Below, piece by piece: positions 3,338 to 8,519 of a stretch of 43,187 nucleotides of DNA. Made by a program: the position numbers and the translations under genes. The stretch lies in assembly GCA_946623785.1 (NCBI GenBank), contig CAMORM010000005.1, positions 1-43,187 on the forward strand, read 5' to 3'. Under the pieces are notes generated by a model. It searched no databases. It saw only the letters and a list, made by a program, of their open reading frames with translations, and was not told where the DNA came from. Source of the stretch: an uncultured Verrucomicrobiota bacterium. GTDB lineage: Bacteria > Verrucomicrobiota > Kiritimatiellia > RFP12 > UBA1067. How positions within the stretch are numbered: the stretch's first letter is position 1; every line of letters begins with the position of its first letter.

Positions 3338-4774
3338 ATGTCGTTCTTCAAGGCGTACGACATGCGCGGCACGTTCGGGGTCGACTTCGGCCTCGACACG
3401 GTCTACAAGGTGGGGCTCGCGCTTCCGAAGGTCGTGAAGGGGAGGCGCTGGCTCGTGGGGCGCGACTGCCGCACGACTTCCGGCGCAGTCCGCGACGCGC
3501 TGGTGAAGGGCCTCTCCGAGGCAGGCGCAGAGGTCTGCGACCTCGGGCTCTGCACCACGCCGATGGTCTACTACTTCACGGCGGCAGACAACTTCGACGG
3601 CTCCGTGATGATAACGGCGTCGCACAACCCGCCGACAGACAACGGGCTCAAAGTCTCGAAGGCTACAGCGCTCCCCGTGGGCTACGCGGACGGCTTGAAC
3701 GAGGTCGAGCGGCTGGTCTCCGGTTCCGGATGTCGAGTGTCGGGGGTTGAATGTCGGGTTCCGGATGGGACAGTCGACGATCGACAGCCGACAACCGGGG
3801 CGACTTGCGGCATTTCGACTTCCGACCCCGCCTCTTCGCCGCTTTCGCGCTACGTCGATTGGCAGCTCAAACACTCAAACACCCAAACACTCAAGAACTT
3901 GTCCTTCGCCGTCGACTGCTCGAACGGAATGTCAAGCATTCTGGCAAAGGAGATGTTCCCTGGCGCTGTTCTGCTCAACGACACGCCCGATGGATCCTTT
4001 CCCGCCCATTCCCCCAATCCGCTCAAGGCGGAGGCTCGCGAGCAGATCGCCAAAGTCGTGCGCGAGAAGCGGCTCGACTGCGGCGTGGTCTTTGACGGCG
4101 ACGCAGACCGTGCGATGTTCGTCGACGAACGCGGCGAGTTCGTCCAGCCCGACTACCTCATCCCCGTTGTCGCCAGGGCCACGAGGGAAAGTTTGAAGTT
4201 TGAAGTCGAAAGTTCAAAGTCGCAGGCGGGCAAGGCAAAGGTCATTCACGATGTCAGGACTAGCCGCGGAGCGATAGAGACTCTGCGGGAGGACGGCTTC
4301 GAGCCGGTGATGGTTCCCGTGGGGCATGCGTTCGCGAAGCCCATCATACGCAGCGAAAAGGCGCTGTGCGGCGGAGAGCTTGCGGGGCACTACTACTTTT
4401 CGGAGTTCTTCGGGTGCGATTCCGGCGTGCTTGCCGCAACGCGCATCCTCTCCGAGATCGCGAAGGCCAAGGCCGAGGGCAAGACGTTCTCCGAGATGAT
4501 GCGCCCGATCATGTCGCGCTATGCGAACTCCGGCGAGGTCAACTTCAAGGTCGAGGACAAGGACGCGGCGATTGCGCGCGTGCTCGAGACGGCGAAGACG
4601 CTCGGCAAGGAGGCGTCGCGTTCGGAGATCGACGGAGTGCGCCTCGAATACGCCGAAGGGTGGATCTCGATACGCAAGTCGAACACCGAGCCGTATCTGC
4701 GCCTCATCGTCGAATGCGACGCACGCGACCGCCTTGACGCCTGGCTCTCCGCGCTCAAGCGCGCGATAGGTTGA
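3338..4774 (+). CDS. Phosphomannomutase/phosphoglucomutase carrying repeat-derived insertions
   Basis: A 478-residue alpha-D-phosphohexomutase that interconverts hexose 1- and 6-phosphates for envelope sugar synthesis. All four family loops are present: phosphoserine loop TASHNP with Ser95, metal loop D253-G-D-A-D-R, sugar loop GGELAGH, and phosphate loop SNTEP near the C-terminus. ATG 3338 (MSFFKAYDMRG) is the natural start, one base after cstA. The spacing from Ser95 to Asp253 is about 24 residues longer than in Pseudomonas PMM/PGM. The excess coincides with residues 129-163, encoded wholly by fifteen heptamers, and with a nearby octamer array; a third array encodes about residues 285-296. 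All keep the frame, and the motifs downstream are intact, so the enzyme is probably functional with surface-loop insertions. Confidence 0.88.
   Translation: MSFFKAYDMRGTFGVDFGLDTVYKVGLALPKVVKGRRWLVGRDCRTTSGAVRDALVKGLSEAGAEVCDLGLCTTPMVYYFTAADNFDGSVMITASHNPPTDNGLKVSKATALPVGYADGLNEVERLVSGSGCRVSGVECRVPDGTVDDRQPTTGATCGISTSDPASSPLSRYVDWQLKHSNTQTLKNLSFAVDCSNGMSSILAKEMFPGAVLLNDTPDGSFPAHSPNPLKAEAREQIAKVVREKRLDCGVVFDGDADRAMFVDERGEFVQPDYLIPVVARATRESLKFEVESSKSQAGKAKVIHDVRTSRGAIETLREDGFEPVMVPVGHAFAKPIIRSEKALCGGELAGHYYFSEFFGCDSGVLAATRILSEIAKAKAEGKTFSEMMRPIMSRYANSGEVNFKVEDKDAAIARVLETAKTLGKEASRSEIDGVRLEYAEGWISIRKSNTEPYLRLIVECDARDRLDAWLSALKRAIG
3722..3826 (+). repeat. Degenerate heptamer array inside the phosphohexomutase gene (15 units, 105 bp)
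   Basis: The bases split cleanly into fifteen 7-mers, for example GGTTCCG, GATGTCG, AGTGTCG, AATGTCG, GGTTCCG, then CAGTCGA, CGATCGA, CAGCCGA and TTTCGAC, TTCCGAC. The early units carry TGTCG and the later ones its complement-like CGACA/TCGA, so the array switches strand sense near 3764. It starts and ends on codon boundaries and adds exactly 35 codons. Confidence 0.8.
3866..3897 (+). repeat. Octamer array inside the phosphohexomutase gene (4 units)
   Basis: Four consecutive 8-mers are seen: CTCAAACA, CTCAAACA, CCCAAACA, CTCAAGAA. They encode the Ser/Thr/Asn/Gln-rich stretch HSNTQTLKN just before the next conserved strand of the enzyme. The array lies 39 bases after the larger heptamer array and seems to be part of the same loop expansion. 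Confidence 0.75.
4191..4225 (+). repeat. Heptamer array inside the phosphohexomutase gene (5 units)
   Basis: Five 7-mers are seen: GTTTGAA, GTTTGAA, GTCGAAA, GTTCAAA, GTCGCAG. The array encodes SLKFEVESSKSQ at about residues 285-296, between the metal loop and the sugar loop. The GTTTGAA unit recurs in the intergenic array at 4802..4836 and resembles the complement of units in the 7290..7380 array. Confidence 0.78.
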
Positions 4775-4801: not shown

Positions 4802-4836
4802 TTTCGCCGTTTGAACTCTGAACTTTGAACTTTCCG
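4802..4836 (+). repeat. Intergenic heptamer array (5 units)
   Basis: Seven-base units TTTCGCC, GTTTGAA, CTCTGAA, CTTTGAA, CTTTCCG lie in the 132-base gap between the phosphohexomutase gene and hisS. The array starts 27 bases after the stop codon and ends 26 bases before the GC block of the hisS promoter. Confidence 0.72.
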
Positions 4837-6174: not shown

Positions 6175-7293
6175 ATGAAGGGTATCGCTCTAGCGGCGGC
6201 TGTCATTGCGGCGACTGCGGCCTTCGCGGCGAAGAAGGCCGAGGAGCCCGTTGGACGCCCGGAGGCGGTCGTCGCGATGCTCAACTCAAGCGTCTCGGGA
6301 GCGCCAAAGGCGTATTCGAAGGCAGTGGCCGCGGTCGTGGAGGACGCCGCGGCGGGATGCACGCTCCAGAAGTTCGTAGTCGCGCTTTTCAACGGCGAGA
6401 AGTCCATGCCCGCCACGCTGAAGGTCCCCGAGTCCGTCCGGGCGGAGTACTACGAGACGGGGCGCAAGCGGATGGAGGAGCTGGCGGCGCAGTCAAACCC
6501 GCTCGCGCTGTACCTGCTTGCAATAGACACGGGCGACACGAACACGCTCCGCCGCGCTGCGGAAGGTGGAAACGTGCAGGCCGCGAACGCGTGGGGCATG
6601 GCGCTGATGTCGGAGGTGGACGGCCCGCTGCCGGACGAGTCCGCGAAGGGCACGATGAAGAGGGCGTTTGGCTTCTTCCGCGACGCCGCCTCGCTGGGCG
6701 ACGCCAACGGGCTGTACAACATGGGCACGTGCTATGCGCGCGGGCTCGGGACTGACAAGGACGACAAGCGCGCGTACCAGTGCTTCAGGTCTGCTGCTGA
6801 CAAGGGCCATCCGCAGGCCATAAACAATCTCGGCTGGTGCTACCTTAAGGGGATGGGCGTCAAGGAGGACCACGCTGAGGCGGCCAAGTGCTTCGCGAAG
6901 TCCGCGGACTACGGCAACGCGGAAGGGCAGCTCAACTACGCTCTTGCGCTCATTTCCGGAGACGGCGTGGCGGTCAACTACAGGACGGCCGCTTCGCTGC
7001 TGCTGGACTCGGCGCGGCAGGACAATCTTGACGCGATCAACGCGTACGCCGTGTGCATTTCCAAGGGCCGCGGCGTGAAATGCGACCCCGCGCTTGCGGC
7101 GAAGTGGTTCCGCGCCGCGGCGGAAAGGGGGCATCCGCCAGCGATGGACAACCTTGCGGCTTGCTACGAGCTTGGCGAGGGCGTCGAGAAGTCGGAGAAG
7201 CTTTCGGTCTACTGGCACATGCGCTCCCTGGCTGCGCGCGGCGACGCCTACGCGGTCCAATGGCTGAAGGACCATCCAGATGGAAATTTGTAA
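6175..7293 (+). CDS. Exported SEL1-repeat (TPR-like) protein
   Basis: A 372-residue protein with a signal peptide (MKGIALAAAVIAATAAFA) and about five SEL1-type helical repeats between residues 175 and 365. The repeats are recognisable by alternating LGxxYxxGxGVxxD and AxxWFxxAAxxGxxxA patterns, such as NNLGWCYLKGMGVKED. SEL1 repeats are protein-interaction solenoids; the partner cannot be told from sequence. ATG 6175 has GGGAGGTG upstream and gives a clean signal peptide, so it is preferred over longer in-frame readings that overlap hisS. Its TAA stop at 7291..7293 lies inside the first unit of a heptamer array. It is likely co-transcribed with hisS. Confidence 0.82.
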   Translation: MKGIALAAAVIAATAAFAAKKAEEPVGRPEAVVAMLNSSVSGAPKAYSKAVAAVVEDAAAGCTLQKFVVALFNGEKSMPATLKVPESVRAEYYETGRKRMEELAAQSNPLALYLLAIDTGDTNTLRRAAEGGNVQAANAWGMALMSEVDGPLPDESAKGTMKRAFGFFRDAASLGDANGLYNMGTCYARGLGTDKDDKRAYQCFRSAADKGHPQAINNLGWCYLKGMGVKEDHAEAAKCFAKSADYGNAEGQLNYALALISGDGVAVNYRTAASLLLDSARQDNLDAINAYAVCISKGRGVKCDPALAAKWFRAAAERGHPPAMDNLAACYELGEGVEKSEKLSVYWHMRSLAARGDAYAVQWLKDHPDGNL

Positions 7294-7380
7294 GTTGTGA
7301 GTTATAAGTTGTAAGTGACTTCAAACTTCAAACATCAAACTTTAAACTTTGAACTTTGAACTTTAAACATCAAACTCAAC
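7290..7380 (+). repeat. Intergenic heptamer array (13 units, 91 bp)
   Basis: The whole gap splits in register into thirteen 7-mers: GTAAGTT, GTGAGTT, ATAAGTT, GTAAGTG, then ACTTCAA twice, ACATCAA, ACTTTAA, ACTTTGA twice, ACTTTAA, ACATCAA, ACTCAAC. The first four units are complement-like to the rest, so the array switches sense near 7318. Its first unit supplies the stop codon of the SEL1 gene, and it ends 14 bases before the next start codon. Confidence 0.85.
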
Positions 7381-7394
7381 CCATGGAGAACCAA

Positions 7395-8519
7395 ATGAAC
7401 ACCAAATCCGCCATCGCGGCCACGATGATCGCAGGCGCGGCTGCCGGGCTTTCCGGATGCGCCAGCACGTCTTCCGAGGTCATTTGCTATGCAGGCTCGA
7501 ACGCAGGGTCAAAGCTTCCGCTCGAGGAGCGCGAAGGCTTCCGCACGCTTGCCGTCAACACAGAAACGGGAGCGTTCCGCGAGCTGGCGATCGAGAAGGG
7601 CGTGGAGGGAACCACGTATTTCGCGCTGAACCGCGCCAACACGCTGCTCTACACGATCCGCAAGGGCGACGCCCCTGCAGGGGCGTCTGGCGTGCTGATG
7701 TGCTACCGCATCGCAGGCGACAAGGTCGAGAAGGACTGGGAGCTGGGCCTTCCATGCGAGGCGCCGTGCCACATCTCGCTGTCCCCCGACGAGACGAAGG
7801 TCGCCTTCGCGGCGTACGTAAGCGCCACGGCCGGCATAGTTGACGTTGCGACGAAGAAGGTCGCAAGCGTAGTCCACGAAGGCAAGGGGCCGAGAGCCGA
7901 CCGCCAGGATAAGGCCCATGCGCACTGTGCGTTCTTTACGCCCGCGGGAGACCGCGTTGGGGTCGTAGACCTGGGCATCGACCAGGTCCGCTTCTACGAC
8001 CTCGACATGAAGCCGGACGCGGCGATGACGATCACCGTTGAGCCGGGGCTCGGGCCGAGGCACGTGGTATTCTCGCCCGACGGCAAGCTGATGTTCATCG
8101 TGCACGAGCTGGGCAACGCCGTGTCGTCGTACCGTTTCGACGGGAAGCGCTTCGAGTTCGTCGAGACGAAGTCCATGCTCCCCGCCGGCTTCGACGGCAA
8201 GACGAAGGCCGCGGCGATCAAGCTCACGGCCGACGGAAGCATACTGATGGCGTCCAACCGCGGGCACGACTCCATCGCGTTCTATGCGGTGGACGCAGCT
8301 ACGGGCAGGATGGAGCTCAGGAACATAGCGAAGCTCACCGGTGCGTTCCCGCGCGACTTCGAGCTCGTGCCGGGCGAGAAGTTCATGATCGTCGGGCACA
8401 AGATGAGCGACGAAATCCAGATGTACGCGTTCGACCGCGCGAAGTGCACGCTCACGCCAGTAGGCGCGCCGATGAAGGCGTTTCGTCCGCTCTGCTTCAA
8501 GTTCGGCGCGCGGCGCTGA
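7395..8519 (+). CDS. Lactonase-like seven-bladed beta-propeller lipoprotein
   Basis: A 374-residue exported protein with a lipobox (LSGC, lipidated Cys22) and a beta-propeller resembling the 6-phosphogluconolactonase/YbhE lactonase family. Blade signatures include HISLSPDETKVAFA, GPRHVVFSPDGKLMFIVHEL, AIKLTADGSILMASNRGHDSIA and PRDFELVPGEKFMIVGHKMSD. Cytoplasmic members hydrolyse 6-phosphogluconolactone, but a lipoprotein would act in the envelope on another sugar lactone or only bind, so the substrate is unknown. ATG 7395 is chosen because GGAGA lies 5 bases upstream; the in-frame ATG at 7383 has no Shine-Dalgarno. The heptamer array forms nearly the whole upstream gap. Confidence 0.75.
   Translation: MNTKSAIAATMIAGAAAGLSGCASTSSEVICYAGSNAGSKLPLEEREGFRTLAVNTETGAFRELAIEKGVEGTTYFALNRANTLLYTIRKGDAPAGASGVLMCYRIAGDKVEKDWELGLPCEAPCHISLSPDETKVAFAAYVSATAGIVDVATKKVASVVHEGKGPRADRQDKAHAHCAFFTPAGDRVGVVDLGIDQVRFYDLDMKPDAAMTITVEPGLGPRHVVFSPDGKLMFIVHELGNAVSSYRFDGKRFEFVETKSMLPAGFDGKTKAAAIKLTADGSILMASNRGHDSIAFYAVDAATGRMELRNIAKLTGAFPRDFELVPGEKFMIVGHKMSDEIQMYAFDRAKCTLTPVGAPMKAFRPLCFKFGARR

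Follow-up and report, generated by a model that had tools for sequence, protein, structure and literature searches.

A heptamer array that supplies a stop codon in an uncultured Verrucomicrobiota bacterium is probably one copy of a dispersed repeat pool

In the window, by which we mean the whole stretch of 43,187 nucleotides from an uncultured Verrucomicrobiota bacterium that was analysed, the 91-base spacer between two genes (7290-7380) is a string of heptamers when the sequence is read directly. The spacer opens with the units GTAAGTT, GTGAGTT, ATAAGTT and GTAAGTG, which are followed by ACTTCAA, ACTTCAA, ACATCAA, ACTTTAA, ACTTTGA, ACTTTGA, ACTTTAA, ACATCAA and ACTCAAC. The elements of the locus are listed here.

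7286 to 7317, plus strand: G-sense tract of about four divergent GTAAGTT-type heptamers with the core AAGTT, overlapping the end of the SEL1 gene (Tandem Repeats Finder, 7288-7316, period 7, score 44)
7291 to 7293, plus strand: TAA stop of the Sel1-repeat gene (Pfam match for the gene, PF08238), within the first heptamer
7318 to 7377, plus strand: C-sense tract of eight ACWTYRA heptamers, the main word of the genome, and a partial unit (Tandem Repeats Finder, 7318-7376, period 7, score 62)
7386 to 7397, plus strand: GGAG resembling a ribosome-binding site (7386-7389) and the ATG (7395) that starts the lactonase gene, directly past the array

The array is genuine and lies well above chance. At a lag of seven bases its best 42-base stretch gave 37 matches, while the maximum in 200 random sequences of two kb, matched to the array in dinucleotide make-up, averaged 22.7 and never exceeded 29. 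Tandem Repeats Finder reported two separate tracts, and 12 of the 13 units were good ones, arranged head to head as four GTAAGTT-type units and then eight ACWTYRA units. In the preliminary description the spacer was split into thirteen heptamers in one register without a stray base. The split can be made as stated, but the thirteenth unit, ACTCAAC, fits poorly, and where the two senses meet the register is a choice rather than a fact. The first four units had also been described as opposite in sense to the last nine. The opposite sense was confirmed, but the tracts are not simple reverse complements: on the other strand the G-sense units read AACTTAC, AACTCAC, AACTTAT and CACTTAC, and have only the AACTT core in common with the C-sense tract.

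Both flanking genes are backed by Pfam (Sel1-repeat PF08238, lactonase PF10282). It was correctly recognised before that GTAAGTT provides the TAA of the SEL1 gene and that the array ends, at 7380, 14 bases before the lactonase ATG. The GGAG lies between them, and an alternative in-frame ATG of the lactonase at 7383 is possible. Conservation of the array together with its flanking genes was rejected, as relatives have lactonase homologues (39-42% identical) with different neighbours and no array.

Tracts of opposite sense with an AAGTT and an AACTT core might be thought to fold into an RNA hairpin, which would serve as a terminator or barrier between the cistrons, and inverted array pairs resembling that of the window were found elsewhere (L081, L091). 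The fold of the sense strand, however, equalled that of shuffled sequences (z 0.06), the antisense strand reached a z of only -1.74, and a terminator-like site was absent. Furthermore, many of the 64 sampled arrays described below are solitary, with no inverted partner. We therefore hold a hairpin function to be most improbable. A REP-like palindrome was rejected on the same folding values. RNA-structure, promoter and terminator scans showed no sign of a cis function at the window array.

A tandem-repeat search over the genome, which had been suggested as a check, showed that similar arrays are abundant. The pattern AACTTYRAACWTYRAAC had 298 matches in the 2.79-Mb genome, compared with 26 for the pattern read backwards; without mismatches the counts were 177 and 3, 177 being the highest count in a sample of 288 genomes of the phylum. 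In 435 kb of the genome 24 arrays of period 7 were detected and none in Markov shuffles. The sampled stretches, 796 kb in total, held 64 arrays of period 7 or 8, among them 31 of the main word, and 54 of the 64 were intergenic; some stretches (in G000 and G018) were picked for known matches, so that the array densities are upper estimates. The heptamer words ACWTYRA, CTAGTCG, GTCTNRC and AATTCCC and the octamers CTCAAACA and CAACCACC coexist in the genome. The window itself holds a further short array of the main word.

4812 to 4833, plus strand: short C-sense main-word array between the phosphomannomutase and HisS genes (repeat scan)

In another genome of the same phylum, G289, homogeneous AACTTCAAACTTCAAAC arrays were seen with 37 of 41 matches on one strand and an equal count for the reversed control, unlike in G000.

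The main-word arrays draw on a restricted alphabet. Four units, ACTTTGA (57), ACTTTAA (41), ACTTCAA (37) and ACATCAA (25), made up 84% of the 190 units in the 31 arrays, and most arrays mixed two to four of them. CG at the variable YR pair was nearly missing from the 190 units (3 observed, 26 expected), and an A at unit position 3 was paired almost only with CA. Identical unit pairs within arrays stood at 0.266, compared with 0.189 in pooled shuffles, with a peak of 0.320 at lag 2 (14 bases). We concluded that local duplication in 7- and 14-base steps takes place too. Strand slippage would duplicate or remove units in such steps, and loops of 7 bases are usually beyond the range of MutS-dependent mismatch repair. 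Loss of mismatch repair as the cause was rejected, since MutS1 and MutL were present in 9 of 9 genomes tested (the MutL match in G044 is partial and below the cut-off).

Relatives in the family carry the same type of array with other words or unit alphabets: CACTGAA and GTTCGAT in G018, TTAGTCG-type units in G001, and AGTTCAG together with octamers in G012. Variation over a short evolutionary distance was followed between G012 and G044, which are close species of another genus in the family (88-95% identical in the compared region), so that the variation described here is between species. One pair of orthologous gaps (L099/L090) differed by one heptamer and nine bases, a whole-unit length change as in slippage-type repeats. 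At L097/L132 G012 lacked one array of about 45 bases as well as about 80 bases made of a different word; at L081/L133 an inverted pair of about 130 bases had shrunk to about one unit; and in the L085/L084 gap about 100 bases of AAAGGAC and CTCTGTC words were extra.

Two loci of G044, L085 (contig C145) and L110 (C468), have inverted pairs of the AAAGGAC/CTCTGTC type around short loops that would form long hairpins; the pair at L085 is absent in G012. A uvrA-like gene, judged by eye, contains an array in G044 (L093, contig C199) with a length that, relative to L131 on C71 of G012, is not divisible by three. Beside this array about 45 bases differ at many third codon positions, and the flanks are about 99% identical.

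Arrays are also found inside a coding sequence. The phosphomannomutase gene of the window has three in-frame low-complexity inserts of different words (3729-3800, 3866-3899 and 4189-4220), which most homologues do not have. Two of them are arrays of the kinds described above.

3866 to 3899, plus strand: array of the octamer CTCAAACA, in frame, in the phosphomannomutase gene
4189 to 4220, plus strand: main word in G-sense, read as codons in frame within a phosphomannomutase linker

In most relatives the second linker is 11-14 residues long. The heptamer word occupies it here; in G044 the octamer CAACCACC does so, in G046 the octamer CTCAAACA and in G055 a repeat resembling CCCTCTCA, and a palindromic insert takes the place of the heptamer or octamer array in G043 (L055) and G052 (L056). 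This short insert reads AYAEATAGKQ and resembles a small dispersed repeat. Both linker octamers, the two words tested, were also found at other places in their respective genomes, and the controls gave zero matches. The word of an array appears to follow the genome and not the site, which favours copying from a genome-wide pool over growth from a local seed.

The same observations bear on whether local slippage alone could be sufficient, every array having grown in place from a chance seed with no copying between sites. The indels in unit steps between close species, the within-array likeness above the pool with its 14-base step, and mismatch-repair genes that are present, yet belong to a system in which MutS is generally known to see 7-base loops poorly, are all consistent with this. 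Chance seeds, however, should have given many unrelated words, whereas few words recur at many sites; one linker carries different words in different genomes; and the units mixed within arrays recur genome-wide. We thus consider slippage alone quite unlikely. A unit pool shared among sites would require copying between arrays beyond slippage.

Our preferred reading is that the window array is probably one copy of a dispersed pool resembling the short tandemly repeated repetitive (STRR) elements of cyanobacteria, kept by slippage and copying between arrays, with its placement at gene edges filtered by selection. Units and whole tracts would pass from one site to another by copying, for which template switching driven by microhomology, or annealing between arrays, is the most plausible process. 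We regard this as the simplest route because it would account for the exchange of whole units, for inverted tracts and for mosaics of words. Such copying could give rise to the common four-unit alphabet here and to a different alphabet in each relative. The arrays would settle where they do least harm, in intergenic gaps, at stop codons and in surface linkers of proteins, and the window array may be a neutral or near-neutral intercistronic spacer that came to supply a stop codon. Some counterpoints should be mentioned. Independent slippage combined with strong selection on unit sequence may have acted in place of copying; the four-unit alphabet is tighter than would be expected from drift alone and could point to a binding site; and with regard to the pool origin, no second array of the window's four G-sense unit form was found in 796 kb of the genome.

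The exact 24-base pattern of the main word was found in at least 116 stretches in GTDB genomes of many phyla, with Bacteroidota, Acidobacteria, Verrucomicrobia, Chlorobi, Cyanobacteria, CPR and Proteobacteria among the matches listed. Alphabets differed among these listed matches, for example ACTTTGA with ACCCTGA in Aequorivita and ACTTTGA with ACCTTGA in a Burkholderiales MAG. Many of the cross-phylum stretches are only three or four units long and may have originated independently. Words common to several phyla, dispersal and presence/absence polymorphism would all be expected if the arrays were moved in trans by a mobile element, as REP and MITE sequences are by transposases, or by a templated polymerase. 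In the alignments of the G012/G044 gaps, however, neither fixed ends, fixed length nor target duplication was noticed, and we consider this explanation very unlikely.

The orientation of the arrays at stop codons was biased. Among the arrays of the family set within 15 bases of a stop codon, the G-richer strand was the mRNA strand in 38 of 46 (p 9e-6); G-sense was found in 23 of 28 arrays overlapping the stop and in 21 of 27 lying just after it. The rule was first noticed on loci of G044, G012 and this genome, and the gene calls came from simple scripts and not from curated annotation; the independent cross-phylum loci, which are the fair test, gave G-sense at stops in 21 of 27. Before starts the cross-phylum loci had the G-rich strand in antisense by 13 to 2, but the family arrays were unbiased (26 to 22). 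A symmetric rule, with G pointing outward at both gene edges, thus held in the cross-phylum set and not in the family set, and only the stop-side rule is claimed. Quadruplex formation by the array units was rejected as well, as the main units contain no GG runs and hence none of the G runs that quadruplexes need; since the stop-side rule is present in such units, quadruplexes are unlikely as its general cause.

That the arrays sit at gene ends and follow a sense rule, and that their unit alphabet is restricted, could be explained if they were functional 5' and 3' mRNA elements offering repeated sites to an RNA-binding protein that controls translation or mRNA ends. A role of this kind was proposed for the TAACTGA repeats of Beggiatoaceae (PMC4679880). 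Arrays at the same gene are nevertheless gained and lost between close species, some lie inside coding sequence (phosphomannomutase), and the flanking genes seem unrelated when judged by eye. Overall we find this explanation rather unlikely. Under the preferred reading of a dispersed pool, selection on mRNA would sort which array sense survives near a stop codon. A more far-reaching idea is a general, so far unrecognised bacterial process that would write short arrays of heptamers and octamers at the edges of genes, the G-rich strand being in mRNA sense after stops, and would favour the same word across phyla, for which dedicated machinery of templated synthesis or copying may exist; we regard this as an improbable speculation.

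We infer from these results that a genome-wide pool, and not local seeds, stands behind the species-specific words of the linker. Repeats of this kind are widespread, change fast and are poorly understood; dispersed heptamer arrays have been reported piecemeal over decades and, to our knowledge, have no accepted mechanism. They are of practical concern too, as such arrays add spurious peptides to proteins and displace gene ends in annotation. The close pair G012/G044, with its gained and lost arrays, is a place where insertion junctions can be read.

The STRR elements of cyanobacteria are tandem degenerate heptamers, dispersed and mostly intergenic, with several words per genome. The analogy drawn to them in the preliminary description holds in form, since arrays of the window type are likewise tandem, degenerate, dispersed and mostly intergenic heptamers present in many copies and with several words per genome. 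The words seem to differ from those of the STRR elements, and here a four-unit alphabet is found in a non-cyanobacterial host. In agreement with the earlier remark that no described family with these units is known in the PVC group, the literature searched did not yield any description from this group. Long simple sequence repeats of prokaryotes have a dominant heptanucleotide period, and slippage was proposed for them (Mrazek et al. 2007, as cited in PMC4679880). As far as they are described there, they are alike in period and slippage, but slippage alone fails to explain pooled units and the replacement of words at one orthologous site. The TAACTGA direct repeats of marine Beggiatoaceae, cyanobacteria and Bacteroidetes (MacGregor 2015, PMC4679880) are also heptamers in gaps, some over stops; they occur sporadically across phyla, are intermixed with further heptamers in certain genomes and show 7-base indels between strains. 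They differ in being one exact unit, with related heptamers rare in the main genome, compared with ACWTYRA here, and in lying mostly directly upstream of starts. The GGGNATC quadruplex heptamers of Xanthomonas and Nostoc have the G-rich strand in sense after stops and antisense before starts (Rehm et al. 2015, PMC4692102). Like the present arrays they lie beside genes and vary in length between close species; they too are G-sense after stops, a rule that covers repeats overlapping the stop. The units here, however, have no GGG and form no quadruplexes, and the start-side bias is absent in the family set. The stop-side sense rule, first reported for quadruplex heptamers, extends to units without G runs.
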